DNA of 64,000 nucleotides from the NCBI RefSeq assembly GCF_001419985.1, contig NZ_LJAL01000001.1, positions 62,001-126,000 of the forward strand, read 5' to 3'. The translations under genes were made by a program, and so were the position numbers. This DNA is from Loktanella sp. 5RATIMAR09 (GTDB lineage Bacteria; Pseudomonadota; Alphaproteobacteria; Rhodobacterales; Rhodobacteraceae). How positions within the stretch are numbered: position 1 is the stretch's first letter; each line of letters starts with the position of its first letter. The notes beneath the pieces are model-generated. The model made no database searches. It saw nothing but the letters and a program-made list of their open reading frames with translations, and was not told the origin of the DNA. Positions 18,557-28,305 of this stretch are shown here, piece after piece.

Positions 18557-19086
18557 GGTACTTCCGTAATGCCGCGAGGTGGCAAAATTTGGGCGAATAT
18601 GAGTCACCCGACACCGTCTTTTGTGGCACGCGAACGTGGCGGATCCGAAGGCACAAAAGGCACCGCCCGTTTCATACGCGCGGCGCATGAAACGCCCGAT
18701 TGTGTTCTTGGTTTGGCAGCAATGACAGGGACACTGCATGCGCCGCACAACACGCGCATCAGAGACCCGATCATCAGCGCCGCACGCGATCACTGATGCT
18801 GCCGCAGGTGCATTTCTGCGCGAAGGCCGGAAAGCAGCCTTTGACTGCGCATGCCGTGTGATTGACAATTCAGGCAAAAAGCGGACTTCTGGGGTCCGCA
18901 AGTCAGTCAAACGTTCAATCTGCCATCTGATGCTGGAATTATGCTCGACCAACCGCGGCTTGCGCGGCTAGGGGATTTGAATATTGAGTGACCGGGAAAG
19001 CTTGATTGAGATAGCAAGAGACATGGGCAAAACGGACAGTCCCCGCCACAAGGTCACGATCCGACAAACAACAGAAGGCATATGCA
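18557..19086. other. 530-base intergenic region before the radical SAM cluster
   Basis: The gap lies between the response regulator (minus) and the radical SAM gene (plus) and should hold promoters for both. Several short frames are open here, but none has a good ribosome site with a protein-like sequence. A 23- to 31-codon frame (19002 or 19023 to 19094) overlaps the GTG start of the next gene and could be a leader ORF. I see no strong terminator, tRNA or repeat. Confidence 0.5.
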
Positions 19087-20052
19087 GTGAGTGATACCGA
19101 TTTAAAGCCGAGGCGTCTGTGCGTTGTAGACGCGGGCAAGATCATTCCGCCATTGAACCTTGAGGTGATCGTTGCAGACCATTGCAATATCACCTGCCGC
19201 CAATGCAACCACGCTTCACCGATCATGAAAAAATGGAATGCAACGGTCGAAGAAACCGAGCGCACGCTGGGACGGCTTGCGGGGGTTTATCACTGCAAAA
19301 AGTTGCGGCTGCTTGGTGGTGAGCCGCTTCTCAACCCCCATATCGCCGACCTGATCAAGATCGCAAAGCGTTCAGGGATTGGCGACATCGTTCAACTGAC
19401 CACGAACGGAATGCTCTTGGACCGCCTTGCTGACGAAGGGTGGGCTGATCTCGACGAGATCGAAATCTCGCTTTATGAAATTTCGAAGCTTTCTGACGCA
19501 AAGATTGAAGAGCTGCGGCGCAAGGGCGCGCGGTTCGGTACCAAGGTGAATGTTTCGCGTTACCCCAGTTTTCGCATCACATTCTCGTCACAAAAGGCGG
19601 AAAGCACCAGCTTGGTCGAAGACGTCTGGCGCGCGTGCAAGATGGCAAATGTTTGGGGCTGTCATGCGCTGCGAAATGATCGTCTGTATCGCTGTCCGCA
19701 ATCCATTTATGTTCCCGGCTTCACAGGCGGACAGCTCGAAGAAGAGGGGTTCAAGATCTCTGACAGCCCGACACTTCAGGAGGATCTGCTGCACTTCCTG
19801 AACGCCGCCGGGCCGCTGAAATCATGCGCACACTGCGTCGGATCCTGCGGAAAGCAGGTTCAGCAGGCAGGCCTTGACCGCAGAGCATGGAAAGCAGACC
19901 TCGATATGCCGTTCGAGGATATGATCGATTTCGAACTTATGAAAAAATCCAAGACCGAGATCCAACTGATCGACGACTGCCGCCGGCCGATCAAGCCGCC
20001 TCGCAAAGCGAAGCGGATTCTTCAAAAGGTTCGGGCGCTCTGGGAGGGCTGA
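19087..20052 (+). CDS. Radical SAM protein with auxiliary cysteines
   Basis: A 321-residue radical SAM enzyme. The AdoMet cluster motif is C33-x3-C37-x2-C40, preceded by the strand NLEVIVADHC and followed by the LLGGEPLLNP motif (76-84). Downstream cysteines C184, C192 and C203 (GCHALRNDRLYRCP) and C247, C250, C254 resemble a SPASM/twitch auxiliary cluster, found in peptide- and protein-modifying members. A basic C-terminus follows. The start is GTG with GAAGG about 9 bases before. It opens a six-gene cluster with a PqqD-like protein 69 bases downstream, so a peptide or protein substrate is likely. The reaction is not known. Confidence 0.85.
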   Translation: MSDTDLKPRRLCVVDAGKIIPPLNLEVIVADHCNITCRQCNHASPIMKKWNATVEETERTLGRLAGVYHCKKLRLLGGEPLLNPHIADLIKIAKRSGIGDIVQLTTNGMLLDRLADEGWADLDEIEISLYEISKLSDAKIEELRRKGARFGTKVNVSRYPSFRITFSSQKAESTSLVEDVWRACKMANVWGCHALRNDRLYRCPQSIYVPGFTGGQLEEEGFKISDSPTLQEDLLHFLNAAGPLKSCAHCVGSCGKQVQQAGLDRRAWKADLDMPFEDMIDFELMKKSKTEIQLIDDCRRPIKPPRKAKRILQKVRALWEG

Positions 20053-20121
20053 CACGAGAAGTTGCATGCGTCCGGTGCAAGCGCTAGACAACCGACGCGG
20101 CAGAAAAGACGGAGTAACTAT

Positions 20122-20517
20122 ATGACCGAACGATATAAAACAGCAGGTCCGGATATCGTCCATGAAAGCTTTGGTGGCGATCTTGTCGTGCTTAATCTGC
20201 GCTCGGGTCAATACTTTGGTCTGAATGCATCAGGTGCGGCGCTCTGGTCTGCCATTATCGAAGGGCAGGATGCCACCGCATTGAGCGCGGATGACACCAC
20301 AAGGCAAATGGCATCTGATTTTGTGACGCAGCTTCTTGATCACGAACTCATTGTCCGCGATGACCTTGCCGGTGAGGGCGCACCCACGGCATCCATATCC
20401 CTTGTGCCCCCTCCGACGATAGAAGCCTATGACGATCTTTCTGACCTGATCGTCGCTGACCCCATTCACGACGTAGACCAGAACGCGGGATGGCCGAAAT
20501 TACCGGACGCCCAGTGA
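20122..20517 (+). CDS. PqqD-like peptide-binding protein with acidic C-terminal tail
   Basis: A 131-residue protein. Residues 1-85 match the PqqD fold: DIVHESFGGDLVVLNLRSGQYFGLNASGAALW is the typical beta-wing and helix pattern (split here over residues 11-42), followed by the helix with TTRQMASDFVTQLLDHELIV. Residues 96-131 are extra: a Pro hinge (PPPT), then LSDLIVADPIHDVD (residues 106-119) and GWP (123-125). PqqD domains bind leader peptides for radical SAM partners such as PqqE. The tail may be a built-in substrate or docking segment. GGAG lies 8 bases before the start. The last codons overlap the kinase gene. Confidence 0.82.
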   Translation: MTERYKTAGPDIVHESFGGDLVVLNLRSGQYFGLNASGAALWSAIIEGQDATALSADDTTRQMASDFVTQLLDHELIVRDDLAGEGAPTASISLVPPPTIEAYDDLSDLIVADPIHDVDQNAGWPKLPDAQ

Positions 20518-21569
20518 TCGCAGATCAATCATTGTCGGGACTGTCCCTTACCCCCCAAACCCTCCTGGAAGATCTGGCGGACTTGTTTTCAAGGGCCGAG
20601 AGAGCCTTTGACTGCGCCCGCCACAGCCGCACCTACGGCGTGGCCGGCGAGGTATTCAGCGTCTTTTCGGATCAAGAGGATTACCTGAACGCGGTGGACC
20701 TGGCGATCTGGTCGCAACCCCCCGAAACCGCCGCGTCGACGCGGATTTTTGTCGGTGTGGCGGGTGAGAACGGCTGTCCTTCGATTGCCTGGCGGGCTGC
20801 GCATTTCGAAGAACGGCAGGTCGAGGCGCTTCTCGCGCCGACGCGGTACCGCATGCACTACTTTCACCCGCTTTCATACTGGCAGGTCTTTGATCGACAA
20901 ACCGCAACAGGTCTTCAGATTCTGAACAGGGCGGACCAGTATCCCCCGTGGGACCTTGGATCGCCCTTGCGCAATTTTCTGCAATGGCATCTTGCCTCGC
21001 GGGACGGGGCGCTGATCCATGCAGGCACACTGGGTGTTGCAGACAAAGGCGTCTTGCTGGCGGGTGCCGGCGGGTCGGGCAAGTCGGGCACGGTCCTTTC
21101 TGGGATTATGGCGGGCCTGACCACCGTTGGCGACGACTACGTCTTCGTGACACCGTCATCGCTGCGTGCCCATCCTCTCTTCGAGACGCTGAAACAGGAT
21201 GCGGACGGGCTCGCGCGGGTTGGCCTTACCAACCACCCAGCCATACCGGCCAACACCAACTGGCAGGACAAATACCAGTTCTTCATCCGTGATCTTGGCC
21301 TGCCCGATCTTCCCGCGAGCCTTTCGCTGAAAGCGCTACTTGTCCCGCGTATTACGGGACAGGCGCGCACCGAACTCTACCCGGTTTCCGCCAAGGAGGC
21401 TTTTCTTGCGCTGGCCCCGTCGGGCGTTACACAGATTCCGGGGGACCGCCCGCTGCTTTATGCAACGGCTGCGGAAATAGCACGGCGTTTGCCTTGCTTC
21501 AGGCTTGATCTGGGTGTTGACCCCGATGAGGTTTCGACCACCATTCGCCAGTTCATCGAAGGCATTTGA
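20490..21569 (+). CDS. HPr kinase-like (HprK-related) P-loop kinase
   Basis: A 359-residue protein whose C-terminal half matches HPr kinase/phosphorylase relatives: ALIHAGTL, then P-loop GAGGSGKS (192-199), then VGDDYVFV (213-220), the acidic pair usual after the P-loop. The N-terminal 150 residues are a family-specific domain. Relatives occur beside PqqD-like and nucleotidyltransferase genes; the HprK homologue of some lasso-peptide loci phosphorylates the precursor C-terminus. The start is uncertain. An ATG at 20490 overlaps the previous gene by 28 bases; a GTG at 20514 gives a 4-base GTGA overlap. It probably phosphorylates a peptide, protein or sugar partner of this cluster. Confidence 0.75.
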   Translation: MAEITGRPVIADQSLSGLSLTPQTLLEDLADLFSRAERAFDCARHSRTYGVAGEVFSVFSDQEDYLNAVDLAIWSQPPETAASTRIFVGVAGENGCPSIAWRAAHFEERQVEALLAPTRYRMHYFHPLSYWQVFDRQTATGLQILNRADQYPPWDLGSPLRNFLQWHLASRDGALIHAGTLGVADKGVLLAGAGGSGKSGTVLSGIMAGLTTVGDDYVFVTPSSLRAHPLFETLKQDADGLARVGLTNHPAIPANTNWQDKYQFFIRDLGLPDLPASLSLKALLVPRITGQARTELYPVSAKEAFLALAPSGVTQIPGDRPLLYATAAEIARRLPCFRLDLGVDPDEVSTTIRQFIEGI

Positions 21570-21570
21570 A

Positions 21571-22317
21571 ATGAAAACAACGGTGATCGTCCCGGTCTAT
21601 AACCGACCCGACAGCTTGGTCCTTGCGATTAGGTCGTTGATCCGTGAGCGGAATGCGGTGGATATGGATATTCTCATCGTGGATGACGGATCAACAGACC
21701 GGACCCCGGAAGTGATCCGAAGTCTGGCGGACAGTCATCCCGAAGTCAGGTCTGTGCGCCGCGAAAATGGCGGCGTGACCAAAGCGCGGAACACCGGTCT
21801 CGACAACCTGCACGACGAAACCGCGTTTGTGACCTTTCTGGATTCCGACGATACGCTCGCAACTGATCGATTTGCCACCGATATGCCAATTCTCCAAGCG
21901 CAGCCGGACATCGCGTTGACCTATGGAAACATGGTCGCAACCAGGCAAATAGACCCGCTGACACTGCGGCCTGCGCAGGATGCAGCGCAGAAAGAAATCA
22001 CCGGTATTCATTTGTCATGCGCTCTGATGCGTCGCAGTCTGATCACGCGGATCGGCCGCTTTGACGAGACCCTGATACAGGCCGAAGACACAGATTATCT
22101 GCTGCGCATTTTTGAATCCGGCACGCGTTTCATCCAGACCTCGACAATCTGTCATTACTATCTGCGTCACGATGGCGGCATGACACGGGATTTCGATCTG
22201 GGGCGAAAGTGTTTCGCGCTCGCCATCATGAAAAGCCTGCAAAGGCGCAAGGCGGATCCGACGCGAAAACTGCATAAGCCGACGTTCGACCTTATGCTAC
22301 CACCGGAGTTGATATGA
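21571..22317 (+). CDS. Family 2 glycosyltransferase
   Basis: A 248-residue GT-A fold transferase. It has IVPVYNRPDSL at the N-terminus, the nucleotide-binding VDDGSTD (37-43), NGGVTKARNTGL, and the metal-binding LDSDD (90-94). A later EDTDYLLR block (in LIQAEDTDYLLRI) is the usual acceptor/base region. No membrane segment is seen, so it is cytosolic. It should transfer a sugar from a nucleotide-sugar donor; donor and acceptor are unknown. It starts one base after the kinase stop and ends 3 bases before the second transferase. Confidence 0.88.
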   Translation: MKTTVIVPVYNRPDSLVLAIRSLIRERNAVDMDILIVDDGSTDRTPEVIRSLADSHPEVRSVRRENGGVTKARNTGLDNLHDETAFVTFLDSDDTLATDRFATDMPILQAQPDIALTYGNMVATRQIDPLTLRPAQDAAQKEITGIHLSCALMRRSLITRIGRFDETLIQAEDTDYLLRIFESGTRFIQTSTICHYYLRHDGGMTRDFDLGRKCFALAIMKSLQRRKADPTRKLHKPTFDLMLPPELI

Positions 22318-22320
22318 CTG

Positions 22321-23001
22321 ATGACCTATAGCGTTGCCATCGCGGCCTACAATGCCGCCGAAACAATCGCCGAGACGCTGCAGTCCGTGCTTTCGCAGAC
22401 CGTGCCACCAACCGAAATCGTCGTTGTCGACGACGGATCAGAAGACGCCACAGCCGAAATAGCACGCGAGGTATCGCCAGACGTTACCGTTCTGACGCAG
22501 CCGAACACAGGCTGTGGCAGCGCCTGCACACGCGCTATCCGTGCGACGACCTGCGAGATTGTCGCGACCGTCGACGCAGACGATTTTTGGCTTCCTGGCA
22601 AGATGCAGCGACAGTTGGACCTGCTTGAGGCAAGCGACGACCGGACGCTGGTCTTTGCAAAGCACCGGCAGTTTCACCACGGCACGCCGGATATGACGTC
22701 CGGTGCTGTGCGTCCTGGCCTGACACGATCGGACCTTGTGTTCAGGCGCAAGGTTTTTGAGGAAGTCGGCCCCATTTTCGACCCGCCCGGAGGACGTGGC
22801 GACATGATTGACTGGCTTGCGAGGGCCCGTGAAATCGGCTGCCCGTTCAAGATCATTGATGACGTCCTCGTCATGCGGCGCATTATCCCCGGCAGCCTGT
22901 CTTTTGGCCGTGAAGCAACCAAGGATGCAGGGTATCTTGCCGTTGCGCATCGGGCGATCCAGCGGCGTCAAGCGCGGAACAGGGATCGTCAGGATCAATG
23001 A
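22321..23001 (+). CDS. Family 2 glycosyltransferase, second copy
   Basis: A 226-residue GT-A transferase related in layout to its neighbour: SVAIAAYNAAETI, VVDDGSEDAT (36-44), NTGCGSACTRAI, and the DxD-type DADDF (85-89). The C-terminal RGDMIDWLARAREIG would carry the catalytic acidic residue. It is shorter than many GT2 enzymes but has the full core. It overlaps the nucleotidyltransferase-like gene by 4 bases (ATGA). Two different GT2 proteins in tandem suggest a two-sugar decoration or two separate acceptors. Confidence 0.86.
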   Translation: MTYSVAIAAYNAAETIAETLQSVLSQTVPPTEIVVVDDGSEDATAEIAREVSPDVTVLTQPNTGCGSACTRAIRATTCEIVATVDADDFWLPGKMQRQLDLLEASDDRTLVFAKHRQFHHGTPDMTSGAVRPGLTRSDLVFRRKVFEEVGPIFDPPGGRGDMIDWLARAREIGCPFKIIDDVLVMRRIIPGSLSFGREATKDAGYLAVAHRAIQRRQARNRDRQDQ

Positions 23002-24470
23002 CACTGCAACCTTCGTCCGCATCGCGCCGGTTTCCGCATATATCCTGGGCGTGGCCCAATGGCAGCAGGCACAAGCTGATCACGGCGGCAATCCACCGGA
23101 ATGATGAAACCGCCTTCGCTGCAATCAAGGACTGGCTCCGTGAGACGGATCTGGATGATGCCACATTCGCCGAACATCGGCTCTTGTCTGCGATCACAAC
23201 GCGTTTCGCGCATGATTTGGCGCAAATGCCTGAATATGCACGGCTTTGCGGTCTGCAACGTCTGAACTGGACGCGGTCCCGGATGGCGATCGCGATTTCG
23301 CGCCCTGCATTGGAAGAGATGGTGAATGCAGGCCTCCGGATCATCCTGCTCAAGGGTGCGTGCCGGGTCGCGCTCGACATGGACGAACAGAAAAGCCGAA
23401 CGTCTTACGATCTCGATCTTCTTTTTCACCCCGACGACTTTGAGAAAGCATTCGAAATACTTGCCGCCGGCGGGTGGCACAGCACCCGTGGTGAAAGCGT
23501 TCTTGGTCTGCGCGCAAGGCTTTCCAGCATCCGCGCCCGCAATTTCAAGAAGGGTCGTTTTGGTGATATCGACCTGCACCGTTCGGCGTATCATCTGGCA
23601 AGTTCGAGCGAGGCCTGTGACCAAGCGCTGCTCAACGACACCCAGCCGGTCAGCTACTATGACCTGCCCATGTATATTCCCAGCGTCGAAGAACGATTGA
23701 CCATGGCGATCGGCCATGGCGGCTGGGATGGCCACAGCCATAGTGACTGGTTGGTGGACGCCGCGCGTATCCTCGACCGCGAAAGCGTGGATTGGGAGAA
23801 GTTCGCAAACATCATCAGGGCCAGACGGCTTCTTGGTCCGGCCGCCATCGCTTTGTCCTATCTGGATCAGGAAATGGGCCTTCAATTGCCCGATCGTATT
23901 CGGGACAACATATATCGCCAGCGCCGCTTTTCCAAAGCCTCTCAGATATCCGCGATGTTGCTGGCCAAGGACACCGATGCCCTCAACCGTGGACAGAAGA
24001 TCGCAAGAGGTATCGTGCAAGGCGTCGAGAGAATCCGGTTCTCAGGCAGAGACAAATCCCATGACACACCGGTCTTCAGGGCGCTGACAAGGAAGGCGCT
24101 GGTATCACCGGATGCAACTCCGGCACTCGAACAGCAAGTGGCTCTGCCGACGCAGCTTCAACCCGGAATATGGGCGTTCGACCTGACGCTCGAGATGCCT
24201 TCACCCCGCAAACCCCGGCGCATCGAACTGGAACTGAACGGGCAGGACCGCAATCTCTGTCATCTTCAAGCATTGCATGTCCGATCAACGGCCGCGCATA
24301 TTGTGGTACGTTTCCGTGGTCAGGTAGACATCAACGCCAATGATCCACCCATCACAGTGTCCGCACTGCCGGGAAAGTTGATGGAAGAGGGCCTGGGCGC
24401 AGAAGACCATGACAAATACGCGGCGATACCATTCTTTATCCGGTCGGCAGATTTCCAGCGGCGCAGATAA
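22998..24470 (+). CDS. Nucleotidyltransferase-family protein (PF14907-like)
   Basis: A 490-residue protein. Residues 95-330 resemble the uncharacterised nucleotidyltransferase family PF14907: LLKG (117-120), then the metal-binding pair D138/D140 in SYDLDLLFHPDDFEKAF, then GDIDLH further on with a third acidic site, and helices with EERLTMAIGHGGW. PF14907 proteins are seen with PqqD-like and HprK-like genes. Residues from about 370 to the end form an extra, possibly beta-sandwich region not expected in the core family. It is the last gene of the cluster, coupled to the second GT2. Whether it transfers nucleotides, and to what, is unknown. Confidence 0.75.
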   Translation: MTLQPSSASRRFPHISWAWPNGSRHKLITAAIHRNDETAFAAIKDWLRETDLDDATFAEHRLLSAITTRFAHDLAQMPEYARLCGLQRLNWTRSRMAIAISRPALEEMVNAGLRIILLKGACRVALDMDEQKSRTSYDLDLLFHPDDFEKAFEILAAGGWHSTRGESVLGLRARLSSIRARNFKKGRFGDIDLHRSAYHLASSSEACDQALLNDTQPVSYYDLPMYIPSVEERLTMAIGHGGWDGHSHSDWLVDAARILDRESVDWEKFANIIRARRLLGPAAIALSYLDQEMGLQLPDRIRDNIYRQRRFSKASQISAMLLAKDTDALNRGQKIARGIVQGVERIRFSGRDKSHDTPVFRALTRKALVSPDATPALEQQVALPTQLQPGIWAFDLTLEMPSPRKPRRIELELNGQDRNLCHLQALHVRSTAAHIVVRFRGQVDINANDPPITVSALPGKLMEEGLGAEDHDKYAAIPFFIRSADFQRRR

Positions 24471-24610: not shown

Positions 24611-27600
24611 ATGAGAACAGATAACGCAATCAGCGCTCCCACATCACAGACGACTGGCCACGCACAAGGTGAGCGCAGGCAGATTACGGCTGTTTTCATG
24701 GATATTGTCAGCTTCAGCAGCATCGCCAGCAAGGCTGATCCCGAAGATCTCGAACATTGGCTTGAAGAATTCTACGGTCAGGCGCGTCGCATTGTCGAGG
24801 CGCAGGGCGGCGAAGTCACCGAATATCTGGGTGACGGGGTTGTCGCGCTCTTTGGTCTCGCCCGCGCGGATGAACTCGCCGCATCAAAGGCCGTCAGTGC
24901 CGCGATGACAGCACTTGACGAAATCGACGCAGGCGCAAGCCAAGGCATCACGATCCAGCTGCGTATCGGGGTCGCGACAGGTGATGCCGCTGTGCGCACC
25001 GACAGAGGGCGTGAAAACCTGCCGCGGGCGACCGGAATGGTCACCACGCTTGCGCGGCGCATCCAGCAAAAGGCTGCCCCCGGCACGGTGTTGATTTCAG
25101 CCAGTACCAAAGCCCTGCTGCGCGGAAGCATCGCCACCGAAGAGATCGGCAACCAGACCCTGAAGGGCTTTGCCGAAACCCAAACCCTGTTTCACCCGCT
25201 TGCAAACCAAACGCAGACGATCACATCGTCGCAGCCCTTTATCGGGCGCAAAGACGTCCTGACGCAGATCAGTCTCAGCCGCGATCCCGTGCTGGTGATG
25301 GGGCAGGCCGGAATTGGCAAATCCGCCTTGGCACGACATATGGCACAGAGCGCCGCTGACGCGACAACCTTTGCCGCCAACGGTGTCAAAACACCCGGCA
25401 GCTATCAACCTTTCGAGGAGTGGCTTTTACACCAAACCGGCAGCACCCTGCCCCACTTCAAAGACATCGCAGCGGTTTTCCCGACCCTGACAGACGAGAC
25501 CCAACGTGCGCTTGCGCTGGTTTTGGGATTGCCCGAAGGCCAGAGCCTTTTGATTGACCGCAGCAATGTCGCCCTCAAGGCGCTGATTGAAGAGAGCCTC
25601 TGGCGGGCGATCCGTGCGACGCAGCCTGCGGGGCTGCTCGTTTTTGAAGACCTGCATTGGCTGGACAACGCCAGCTTTGGCGTCCTGCGGCATATTCTCG
25701 AGAACGCAGGCACCGATGATTATCAAATCCTGATGACAAGCCGCGAAGACAGCAAGATCGACAAGCACCTCGACACGTCGCGGATCACGGTGATCCCCCT
25801 CGCGCCACTCTCCGATGCCGAGGCCGCTGATCTGCTTGATGCGGTTGCAGATACGCCACCCTCGCCCGGCCAAAAGGCCTTTGTGATTTCACAATCCGCA
25901 GGGATCCCTTTGTTCATCGAACATTTGTCAAAGCGCAACGCATTCGACGACAGCATATCCGCAAATGTTCCGGGCTCTCTCAAGGACTTGTTGGCAGATC
26001 AGATTGATGCAACAGGACCGACCAAAGCCGTGTTGCAATGTGCCGCAGTCATCGGGCAAACCTTTACCTTCGACATGCTTGAGGCCATCGCATCAGATCA
26101 CGCCCCGCTTGATCTGCATCTGCAGGAGGCCTGCAGAAAAGGTGTGCTTAAACAAATTGGTGCTGCCAAATGGGGGTTTGCGCATGCGCTTTTGCAGCAA
26201 GCGGCCTATGACAGCCTCTTGCGGACCAAACGGATCTCCTACCACGCCGAAATCGCCGCGCACCTCAAACGCGACCATGTCGACGCAGTGATGCGTAATC
26301 CGGCCCTGCTGACGGCCCACCTCAGCCGCGCCGAACAGCATATTCCGGCAATCAAGAACTTACTTTCCGTCAGCCGCTGGGCATTGTCACAAGGGGCCTT
26401 TGACGATGCCGAAGCCCATGTGCTGGCTGCTGTCGCATTGTGCGAGAAAGCGCCTGCAAAGGTCGATGTCCGCACGCTTGAAATCGCCTGCTATTCGGCG
26501 CTGGGGTCAATCCGGATGCAAACGCAGGGCTTTACCGCAGACTCGGTAAAAGCAGCCTTTGAAACCGTCGCAAAACTGGCAAGCGGCAAGGATGCGCATT
26601 CCCCTGCGAACGGGCCCGCCCTTTACGGAAGCTTTACCCATGCCATTGTGTCGGGCGACAAAAAGGCCGCCACGCGGTTTGCCGATATGCTGCGCAAAGC
26701 CGCGCACATCGTGCCGTCGGGCAGCCCCGATAACGAAATGCGGCTGGCTTCTTTGAATACGGACGCCGCCTTGCAATTCTATACCGGTGGTTTTGCCAAA
26801 GTATCATCCACATTCAAATCCCTGCGCAGGCATTACGATATCACCACCCATGGCGCGATGATCGCCAGCTATGGTGCAGACACATTCGCCGCAGCGCAGA
26901 TGTTTGACTGTGTGTCACGCGCTATTTGCGGGCAGACACATCTGATCACGGAAATGATCATGGAAACGGATGCGCACCAACGGCAGTTGAATATTCCGGT
27001 GATGCAACCCTGGGCCCAGATTTGGGGGGCGGTGTCGCTATTCTACGCAGGCCAACAAGACGCGGCTACGGACCGCGTGCGACGCGGGATCGCTACTGCG
27101 GCCAAACAGGACGCGTTCTTCTGGCGGATCACAGGGGCCGCGTGGTTGCACGTCATGCAACCTTCCGAAAGCGCCAGCGCAGAAGGCCTTGCGCGGTTCG
27201 CGCGAACGATCGGCACCTATGAAAGGATGGGCGCGCATATCGGGCTCCCTTATTTCCGGGCGCATTACGCACTTGCGCAGGCCGAACATGGCGATATCGC
27301 CGCCGCCTATGAAAGCGCGTTGCAGGCCGTGCGCGAAAACGAGAATGACGGCCTGCATAGCTGGTATCCAGAGGTGCTTCGGCTACATGCACTTGTGTGT
27401 GACATCGAAGGTGGCACAGCCGGTGCTGCACGTTTTCGCCAAGAGGCTGCTGCCATAGCCGGCAAACAAGGTGCGATACTCTGGTTGTTGCGCACACGGA
27501 TCGACCAACTGTGCGCGGGCGAAATAGATGCCGCACTCTTGGCAGAGGCGGTTGGCCAGCTTCACCGCCGCGCGGCGCCGCCCGAAAAACAGGCAGCACT

Positions 27601-27622
27601 TGCGCTGTTGTCGCGGGCATGA
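24611..27622 (+). CDS. Class III adenylate/guanylate cyclase with AAA ATPase and TPR-like region
   Basis: A 1003-residue multidomain signalling protein. Residues 20-200 form a class III cyclase domain with metal-binding D31 (VFMDIVSF) and D75 (LGDGVVALFG). The usual ribose-binding Asn appears to be replaced by Thr in MVTTLARR, while the Arg remains. Residues 205-500 form an AAA/STAND-type ATPase with Walker A GQAGIGKS (231-238) and Walker B LLVFEDLHWLD (342-352). The remainder is helical, TPR-like. It probably makes cAMP in response to a cytosolic cue sensed by the ATPase/TPR part. Its TGA overlaps the start of a Crp-family gene (ATGA). Confidence 0.88.
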   Translation: MRTDNAISAPTSQTTGHAQGERRQITAVFMDIVSFSSIASKADPEDLEHWLEEFYGQARRIVEAQGGEVTEYLGDGVVALFGLARADELAASKAVSAAMTALDEIDAGASQGITIQLRIGVATGDAAVRTDRGRENLPRATGMVTTLARRIQQKAAPGTVLISASTKALLRGSIATEEIGNQTLKGFAETQTLFHPLANQTQTITSSQPFIGRKDVLTQISLSRDPVLVMGQAGIGKSALARHMAQSAADATTFAANGVKTPGSYQPFEEWLLHQTGSTLPHFKDIAAVFPTLTDETQRALALVLGLPEGQSLLIDRSNVALKALIEESLWRAIRATQPAGLLVFEDLHWLDNASFGVLRHILENAGTDDYQILMTSREDSKIDKHLDTSRITVIPLAPLSDAEAADLLDAVADTPPSPGQKAFVISQSAGIPLFIEHLSKRNAFDDSISANVPGSLKDLLADQIDATGPTKAVLQCAAVIGQTFTFDMLEAIASDHAPLDLHLQEACRKGVLKQIGAAKWGFAHALLQQAAYDSLLRTKRISYHAEIAAHLKRDHVDAVMRNPALLTAHLSRAEQHIPAIKNLLSVSRWALSQGAFDDAEAHVLAAVALCEKAPAKVDVRTLEIACYSALGSIRMQTQGFTADSVKAAFETVAKLASGKDAHSPANGPALYGSFTHAIVSGDKKAATRFADMLRKAAHIVPSGSPDNEMRLASLNTDAALQFYTGGFAKVSSTFKSLRRHYDITTHGAMIASYGADTFAAAQMFDCVSRAICGQTHLITEMIMETDAHQRQLNIPVMQPWAQIWGAVSLFYAGQQDAATDRVRRGIATAAKQDAFFWRITGAAWLHVMQPSESASAEGLARFARTIGTYERMGAHIGLPYFRAHYALAQAEHGDIAAAYESALQAVRENENDGLHSWYPEVLRLHALVCDIEGGTAGAARFRQEAAAIAGKQGAILWLLRTRIDQLCAGEIDAALLAEAVGQLHRRAAPPEKQAALALLSRA

Positions 27623-28305
27623 CCCCCGAGAAACTCCTCGGCTATAATCTCCCGCTTTTTGCAGGAATGAAGCCTGCCGACTTGGGCACCATCACGTTGG
27701 ACATCAGCGAACAGCACCTCGCGCCATGGCAAACGATCATTGATCAGGATGACGCATCCTACGATATCTACTTCTTGCTATCAGGCGCGCTCTTGGCTGT
27801 TTTCTGGACGCCGCAAGGACGCGAAATCGTTTTTTCGCGCTTTCCTGTCGGGTCTTATTTCGGGGAACTGGCCGCCTTCGACGGCATTCCGCGCTCGCTT
27901 GCGGTTGTTGCAAAAACCGAGGCCACTGTCCTGACAATGACGCGCAGCAGCTTTTTGCAATTGTTCAACGAAGTGCCCCTGCTGCGGGACCGGATGACGA
28001 AAAATCTTGTGGACAGGATACGCACCCTGACCGAACGCAATATGGAAATGACAACCCTCTCGGTTGACCAACGGGTCAGAAAATACCTGCTGCGGCTGGC
28101 CGCAGAGGAAGCCAAGCTGTTCAAAGGGGCCGTTATCGAACACGCACCGACACATGCAGAGATTGCAGGCTCTGTCGGGGCAAACCGTGAGATGGTCAGC
28201 CGTGCGATCAGCAAGTTGGTCAAGGGCGGTGTGATCAGATCAGCGCGTCAAAAAATCGAAATCCTTGATCCCGCAGCACTCTCGGACCACCTTGCCTCGT
28301 TTTAA
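27619..28305 (+). CDS. Crp/Fnr family transcription regulator
   Basis: A 228-residue regulator. The N-terminal cyclic-nucleotide-binding barrel has a phosphate-binding cassette FGELAAFDGIPRSLAVV, with the GELA, R and S residues used for cAMP contact. The C-terminal winged helix has THAEIAGSVGANREMVSRAISKL (given here in two parts: THAEIAGSVGA and NREMVSRAISKL), with the recognition helix in the second part. There is no N-terminal cysteine cluster, so it is not an Fnr oxygen sensor. It is translationally coupled to the cyclase gene just upstream, suggesting that it reads the cAMP made there. Confidence 0.9.
   Translation: MTPEKLLGYNLPLFAGMKPADLGTITLDISEQHLAPWQTIIDQDDASYDIYFLLSGALLAVFWTPQGREIVFSRFPVGSYFGELAAFDGIPRSLAVVAKTEATVLTMTRSSFLQLFNEVPLLRDRMTKNLVDRIRTLTERNMEMTTLSVDQRVRKYLLRLAAEEAKLFKGAVIEHAPTHAEIAGSVGANREMVSRAISKLVKGGVIRSARQKIEILDPAALSDHLASF

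Follow-up and report, generated by a model that had tools for sequence, protein, structure and literature searches.

Lasso peptide loci whose products are phosphorylated or phosphoglycosylated (paeninodin pade, pseudomycoidin psm, and bsf) are the closest described relatives of the system considered here. They combine an HprK-like kinase with a B1-type RiPP recognition element (RRE; RiPPs are ribosomally synthesized and posttranslationally modified peptides), and psm and bsf also encode a PF14907-type "nucleotidyltransferase." In lasso B1 proteins, the leader follows helix 3 and, at strand 3, completes the sheet (PMC5067487), and the recognition motif YxxPxL occupies positions −17 to −12 (PMC10368454). 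Loci such as bsf contain B1, K, and N genes (PMC10368454). PsmK phosphorylates pseudomycoidin, and PsmN is required for one or two hexoses on the phosphorylated peptide, PsmN being unproven as the transferase itself (PMC9266682). Here, we analyzed a 64,000-nucleotide stretch of Loktanella sp. 5RATIMAR09 (contig NZ_LJAL01000001.1, positions 62,001 to 126,000; hereafter the window), in which an initial annotation made from the letters alone had proposed an undescribed modification system of six genes. The cassette shares the RRE, the kinase, and the PF14907 protein with lasso loci, and its PqqD-like RRE protein ends in a tail that resembles the lasso leader motif.

Other described systems overlap with the cassette in part. 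The SynChlorMet cassette is composed of an HprK-like protein (ScmC), a PqqD-like protein (ScmD), and radical S-adenosylmethionine (SAM) enzymes (ScmE/F), types of gene that also stand together in the window. Mycofactocin and pyrroloquinoline quinone (PQQ) pathways share the PqqD-type RRE, and mycofactocin also has a family-2 glycosyltransferase (GT2; MftF). The window's radical SAM protein is a full-length relative of SpeY, an antibiotic-pathway enzyme that forms the ketone of spectinomycin, whereas we regard the window protein as a candidate sugar dehydrogenase. When window proteins were compared with the corresponding models, all scores fell below the cut-offs: 26.9 of 265 bits for MftC, 68.1 of 280 for MftF (with GT2a), 18.1 against 125 for ScmC, and 23.2 against 400 for ScmF. 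The Halomicronema PqqD protein likewise reached 23.2 bits against 100 with the ScmD model, and similarity of the kinase to the HPr-rel-A system (TIGR04352) was distant (24.5 bits in the window and 42.1 in Spirosoma; cut-off, 200).

The differences from these systems are substantial. Unlike lasso loci, the cassette has two GT2 genes, no separate precursor that we could find, no match to peptidase B2, and no cyclase that we saw; its leader- and core-like segments are fused to the RRE, and the core is conserved rather than variable and lacks a conserved Ser/Thr. Unlike mycofactocin and PQQ loci, it has no MftA- or PqqA-like free precursor, its radical SAM gene is optional and SpeY-like, and it carries a kinase and a PF14907 protein instead. 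We found no description of the gene combination, the motif letters, or the family accessions in the open-access literature, and, in line with the initial annotation, our searches there matched the cassette to no described RiPP class. A 2025 RRE survey presents 13 recognition motifs and RREs paired with separate precursors; the parts of it examined describe no RRE-leader-core fusion of the cassette kind. The cassette is apparently undescribed, its kind being RRE-guided peptide modification; should the tail turn out to serve as a glycan carrier anchored to protein, it would represent a category of its own.

The cassette recurs across phyla

A core consisting of a PqqD-like protein, an HprK-like kinase, one or two GT2 enzymes, and usually a PF14907 protein recurs across phyla and is one system. 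Finding this gene set again in genomes that are not related places the arrangement beyond chance, in line with the initial view of the six genes as parts of a single system. The core was found in Alphaproteobacteria, Bacteroidota, Cyanobacteriota, and metagenome-assembled genomes (MAGs) of Acidobacteria and Clostridia, bearing in mind that MAG bins may be contaminated. Searching 295 genomes of the family with the HprK-like protein gave a match in 15; five of these, the window apart, scored at least 100 bits, and all five adjoin PqqD-like and GT2 genes. One relative (G012, locus L066) carries the six genes in the order of the window; in another (G089, locus L068), the radical SAM gene lies on the opposite strand, with an extra GT2-like gene in between. 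A one-genome-per-species scan with the pattern DL[IL][VAT][AL]DPIH, which represents the best-conserved stretch of the PqqD protein, gave 66 matches, of which 32 were confirmed loci and 34 were unconfirmed as relatives. The confirmed loci came mostly from Rhodobacteraceae and other Alphaproteobacteria; the scan also found Halomicronema (Cyanobacteriota), Spirosoma, Rudanella, and an Algoriphagus MAG (Bacteroidota), and MAGs of Acidobacteria, Deltaproteobacteria, and Clostridia.

Gene order is shared over long distances and varies in detail. Halomicronema, Spirosoma, and the window all read PqqD, HprK, GT2, GT2, PF14907. In Rudanella, a GT2 domain is carried on the kinase open reading frame (ORF), and two GT2 domains lie in one protein at L090 and L093 (by Pfam) and at L086, L094, and L095 (by length and score). 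The Clostridia MAG has its PF14907 and HprK genes ahead of PqqD, the Acidobacteria locus has one GT2, and the deltaproteobacterial fragment L080 ends after radical SAM, PqqD, and PF14907 genes. Two PF14907 genes and one GT2 occur at L059, L062, and L063, all from one GTDB family. A plasmid search with the PqqD protein returned a single match, Crinalium epipsammum plasmid pCRI9333.04 (L120, 5896-11857), where PqqD, PF14907, HPr kinase, FkbM methyltransferase, and GT2 genes stand in a row; the same protein had no match in 50,697 phage records. This plasmid is typed as mobilizable, and methyltransferase, oxidoreductase, second GT2, and SMP-30 genes lie near its cassette.

To count gene content and identity, six duplicates of named loci (L016-L020 and L060) were removed, leaving 43 distinct loci. 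Among these, HprK was present in 37, GT2 in 42, PF14907 in 36, and radical SAM in 9 (the match at L071 being a fragment), although contig edges cut off some of the 34 loci without a radical SAM gene. Among cultured bacteria with the cassette, Pacificibacter marinus (L064) showed no radical SAM gene nearby, and Fuscovulum blasticum (L074) has one. When only full-tail loci with 4500 bases or more downstream were counted (31 loci), GT2 was present in 31, HprK in 29, PF14907 in 25, and radical SAM in 8, and 29 of them had two or more GT2s (28 plus L083, whose kinase ORF bears a GT2 domain). The initial annotation had named independent occurrence of the genes in relatives as evidence that would speak against one system. 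By these counts, HprK, GT2, and PF14907 do not occur independently, and their co-occurrence supports them as partners of the PqqD-type RRE; the radical SAM gene is a loose member, though its three strong matches within the family (>500 bits) all lie in cassettes.

The PqqD-like protein ends in a conserved tail

By sequence comparison, the PqqD-like protein is a lasso-B1-type RRE followed by a variable linker and a conserved tail. For the RRE domain, a PDB profile search matched TbiB1, the closest solved sequence relative (E = 2.5e-9), a lasso PqqD-family chaperone, and TfuB1, and every Foldseek match at E ≤ 0.001 was TbiB1, including TbiB1 with leader. For four cassette PqqD proteins, the best NCBIfam matches were lasso PqqD chaperones, under the cut-off. 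The tail follows the consensus ..P.[LI]E.Y.D[LM].DL[LI]..DPIHDVD..GWP and, on its own, had no match among PDB sequences.

Since most aligned loci were found by the DPIH motif itself, loci selected through HprK provide the fairer test of conservation. This set comprised 12 loci, five at ≥100 bits from the 295-genome search and seven at ≥110 bits from a second search; outside it remained nine matches from the first search (≤57 bits), one of which, G009, has no tail, and 12 from the second (50 to 63 bits). A leader-like tail was present in 12/12 and the longer core in 10/12, with GWP missing from G100 and DIVH in place of DPIH in G617. Mean pairwise identity over the 10 full-tail loci was 48.7% for the tail, 25.1% for the domain, and 13.8% for the linker; with the two short-tail loci added, the values were 44.8%, 26.1%, and 14.3%.

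An alignment of all 43 sequences, in 32 of which agreement in DPIH is built in by the scan pattern, placed D113 in 42/42, P114 in 42/43, H116 in 39/40, G123 and W124 each in 39/43, and P125 in 41/43. Ahead of this core, tailed sequences carry a register like that of the lasso leader: P98 in 29/42, a hydrophobic residue at 100 in 42/42, and an aromatic residue at 95 in 21/42, with all three together in 18/42. The window protein carries V at the aromatic position. Positions 98 to 114 are gap-free in 42/42, so that the P-x-hydrophobic element stands at a fixed distance ahead of the core, as YxxPxL does in lasso precursors.

An AlphaFold2 model built from 30 sequences had a mean predicted local distance difference test score of 92 for residues 91 to 100, 78 for 101 to 110, and 55 to 60 from 111 on, which leaves DPIHDVD..GWP at low confidence. 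Because DSSP assigns a strand to residues 100 to 103, a partner strand is implied, and the modeled pattern may represent a leader docked in cis followed by a presented core. Such tails are not the rule among PqqD proteins. In a scan of 385 genomes of the class, 37 had a PqqD-profile match and only 11 places, the window included, extended into the tail portion of the model; PqqD proteins without a tail are therefore more common. Stella sp. ATCC 35155 (G474) has two tailed copies (L060/L091 and L061), one adjoining a kinase gene and the other without.

No separate precursor or lasso peptidase was found

The initial annotation had noted the absence of a separate precursor. That much held, in that our searches recovered none; the view that there is no precursor at all is not supported, as a tail with leader- and core-like parts closes the PqqD protein, and the "missing" precursor may be fused to it. 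Among 1836 ORFs of 20 to 90 amino acids compared across 38 loci, excluding ORFs wholly inside cassette genes and with cross-locus matches judged by eye, none recurred as one sense ORF in unrelated loci. The matches were mostly antisense to cassette or neighboring genes or lay between close relatives, and one antisense set pointed to a family-4-type glycosyltransferase (GT4-type) gene. A 36-amino-acid ORF at 18984-19094 (TTG start preceded by AGGGG, overlapping the radical SAM start) was considered as a precursor and set aside, its best match among the loci having an E value of 8.1. The lasso leader peptidase B2 (PF13471) was matched in 0/12 cassette genomes searched, the control search being positive in 2/14 known genomes. 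No asparagine-synthetase-like cyclase C appeared among the gene clusters common to the loci, no model search having been aimed at it.

Gene layout and enzyme assignments

All six ORFs lie on the plus strand at 19087-24470, where they had originally been placed, and their close packing was borne out: the widest gap is 69 bases, the HprK-like gene overlaps PqqD by 28 bases, and the PF14907 gene overlaps GT2b by 4 (Table 1). The PqqD start was set at ATG 20122 rather than at TTG 20062 of the mechanical ORF list, as GGAG lies directly upstream and relatives agree; GT2a starts at ATG 21571 within a longer mechanical ORF (21505-22317). Pfam recovered the domain names first given to the genes (Radical_SAM, E = 1.1e-11; PqqD, 9.4e-7; Glycos_transf_2, 1.7e-24 and 2.3e-30; NTP_transf_5, 8.8e-21), except that the kinase was assigned through a profile of its relatives against solved structures. 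None of the six proteins reaches a curated NCBIfam cut-off among the matches listed (the best 25 for three proteins). The G+C content is 57.2% for the cassette and 58.2% for the window.

Table 1. Features of the cassette in the Loktanella sp. 5RATIMAR09 window
Feature	Position	Strand	Basis
Radical SAM enzyme, SpeY-like, with CxxxCxxC motif and twitch-type cysteines; GTG start; optional accessory and probable sugar dehydrogenase	19087..20052	+	Pfam, phmmer, Foldseek
PqqD-like RRE protein with C-terminal tail, 131 amino acids	20122..20517	+	Pfam, PDB profile, AlphaFold2, Foldseek
RRE (PqqD/lasso B1-type) domain, residues 5-78	20134..20355	+	PDB profile search, Foldseek
Leader-like tail segment, residues 95-112, in the register of lasso YxxPxL; predicted strand 100-103 and helix 107-112	20404..20457	+	Alignment, AlphaFold2
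Core-like segment DPIHDVDQNAGWP, residues 113-125; candidate substrate, best-conserved stretch, modeled at low confidence	20458..20496	+	Alignment, AlphaFold2
HprK-like kinase, P-loop present	20490..21569	+	Pfam below cut-off, relatives' profile, alignment
Family-2 glycosyltransferase A (GT2a)	21571..22317	+	Pfam
Family-2 glycosyltransferase B (GT2b)	22321..23001	+	Pfam
PF14907 nucleotidyltransferase-fold protein, PsmN family	22998..24470	+	Pfam, literature

The kinase itself scores 20.6 bits in Pfam against a cut-off of 33.3, but a profile built from seven relatives aligns with solved HPr kinases in the P-loop region (E = 1.6e-5). Its residues H177, K198, D215, and D216 are invariant in 12/12 aligned relatives and appear to correspond to the His-Lys-Asp-Asp motif of lasso-type tailoring kinases (PMC9266682).

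A GT4-type glycosyltransferase gene stands next to the cassette at L055, L084, L086, L090, L091, and L093, almost only where PF14907 is absent (5/6 loci without PF14907 versus 1/25 with it; Fisher P = 2.1e-4, or 0.0067 once close relatives were collapsed by hand). The two genes behave as though one replaces the other, and this near-exclusion fits a role of the PF14907 protein in glycan building. If the cassette works as proposed below, PF14907 proteins ("uncharacterised nucleotidyltransferase") would have a second context for asking whether they act as glycosyltransferases on phosphates, as pseudomycoidin suggests. Other loci have sugar-type neighbors (FkbM methyltransferase, pyruvyl transferase, rhamnosyl transferase, and NAD-dependent epimerase genes), as if each lineage decorated a glycan in its own way, although several lie some kilobases away and may be there by chance.

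For the radical SAM enzyme, SpeY was the closest solved relative both by sequence (phmmer to 7wzv, E = 3.9e-55) and by structure (Foldseek of the predicted model, TM score 0.83, with 34% identity over almost the full length); the SpeY entries 7wzv, 7wzx, and 7x0b are titled "Twitch Radical SAM Dehydrogenase SpeY," and the next structural matches (MoaA and viperins) align far worse. A viperin-like defense role was rejected, as the viperin model gave 39.1 of 180 bits and PADLOC pVip 47.9 bits over residues 29 to 149 only. Within the family, 4/295 genomes match at E ≤ 1e-40, the three strong matches noted above and a fourth (195 bits) outside any cassette, next to an ORF that by eye resembles a carbamoyltransferase. 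Because the enzyme is optional and SpeY-related, sugar chemistry is likelier than peptide chemistry, and this optional accessory of the cassette is probably a sugar dehydrogenase.

A proposed mechanism and its alternatives

We propose that this self-contained cassette builds a small glycan, perhaps with phosphate, on the tail of its own RRE protein in cis, a reading that we judge to be evenly poised between right and wrong. The opening half of the tail (P-x-[LI]-E-x-Y-D-D-[LM]-x-D-L) would dock in cis within the groove of the RRE, much as lasso leaders do in trans, and would present the invariant core DPIHDVD..GWP. Both GT2 enzymes, together with the PF14907 protein, would glycosylate this core, with the HprK-like kinase supplying phosphate, by analogy with PsmK and PsmN on pseudomycoidin; in Rhodobacterales, the SpeY-like enzyme would oxidize a sugar hydroxyl. 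Since neither a leader peptidase nor a cyclase would be needed, the product would stay anchored to the protein or be freed by a general protease. With more doubt than belief, we extend this to a phylum-spanning RRE-precursor fusion in which recognition domain, leader, and invariant core sit in one protein and the dedicated set of two GT2 enzymes, a PF14907 transferase, and an HprK-like kinase makes of the core a protein-anchored phosphoglycopeptide, its sugar oxidized further in Rhodobacterales. If so, given how little the core varies between phyla, it would serve as a carrier, primer, or cofactor and not as an antibiotic.

Several observations weigh against a tail that is itself the substrate. 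The 43-sequence alignment contains no conserved Ser/Thr in the tail, and these residues are the known targets of lasso HprK-like kinases. L059, L062, and L063 keep the kinase and/or PF14907 and one GT2, yet end in a short LDPPLP without IHDVD..GWP, and L021 has PqqD, GT2, kinase, and PF14907 genes but no tail, so the enzymes can exist without the IHDVD..GWP core. Conversely, two full-tail loci (L084 and L091) are without a nearby kinase, and three (L055, L056, and L082) have a full tail and a single GT2 found. The tail limits (98-125) were chosen after conservation was seen, modification of the tail and its acceptor residue are predictions, and the steps after recognition are ones that we infer. 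A docking or activating motif would, moreover, be conserved too. On that alternative, the tail is such a motif, the RRE protein brings kinase and GT2 enzymes to a different acceptor (a lipid carrier, a glycan, or another protein), and the cassette forms a small surface-glycan assembly unit. The missing Ser/Thr and the enzymes of short-tail and tailless loci are as expected here, as is the company that some loci keep: a gene of the Amj family (Alternate to MurJ, PF10997) follows or neighbors PF14907 at L081, L083, L088, and L089 of Spirosoma/Rudanella (two of them tested with Pfam and two called by similarity), ATP-binding cassette transporters with a membrane domain lie near L090, L019/L092, and L094, and pyruvyl and rhamnosyl transferase genes lie near L094 and L078, respectively. 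However, flippase and transporter genes are not common to the loci, none was recognized in the window flanks, and the most invariant part of the tail lies beyond the RRE-docked segment, which bare RRE docking leaves unexplained. It is because of the missing Ser/Thr, the enzymes retained by short-tail and tailless relatives, and the inferred later steps that we go no further than an even judgment on the in-cis substrate and hold docking to be a doubtful, though serious, contender.

Two further possibilities retain a conventional peptide. One, the view of the initial annotation, is a RiPP-like pathway: a peptide encoded elsewhere is delivered by the PqqD protein and modified by the radical SAM enzyme. 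Neighboring PqqD and radical SAM genes are indeed common in RiPP loci (PMC7470986), and at L080 a radical SAM gene adjoins a tailed PqqD gene. Yet a radical SAM enzyme is hardly the peptide-modifying heart of a system in which it is absent from 34/43 loci, stands upstream, downstream, or on the opposite strand where present, and has as its nearest full-length solved relative SpeY, which is no RiPP maturase; tails also look alike in loci with and without it, and we consider this pathway unlikely. Less probable still, to the point of being nearly dismissed, is a degenerate or scattered lasso pathway with precursor, peptidase, and cyclase elsewhere in the genome. The trio of B1, kinase, and PF14907 does match the accessory genes of phosphorylated lasso loci such as bsf (PMC10368454), but the PF13471 search, negative in all 12 cassette genomes covered, largely refutes this idea, and it is two GT2 genes that are constant instead.

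Were in-cis tail modification to prove correct, it would unite in one pathway genes that public annotation lists under generic names ("PqqD family protein," "HPr kinase," "nucleotidyltransferase family protein," and "glycosyltransferase family A protein" in one annotated record). A built-in precursor could also escape genome mining aimed at a separate small peptide gene. The tail is a short sequence that mass spectrometrists can use.

Genomic setting of the cassette

A congeneric genome (G294) conserves the flanks of the cassette, with the left-hand two-component system (response regulator 76% and kinase 55% identical) and the right-hand Crp-type regulator (70%) both retained. Between them, G294 has different genes, resembling fatty-acid CoA metabolism by eye, and neither the six cassette genes nor the cyclase-ATPase gene at 24611-27622 had a match there. 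Because the flanks are conserved while the intervening genes differ, the cassette occupies a variable spot and is probably a movable addition. The gene at 24611-27622 joins an adenylate/guanylate cyclase domain of class III type to an AAA ATPase part, and it overlaps the start of the Crp-type regulator gene (27616-28305).

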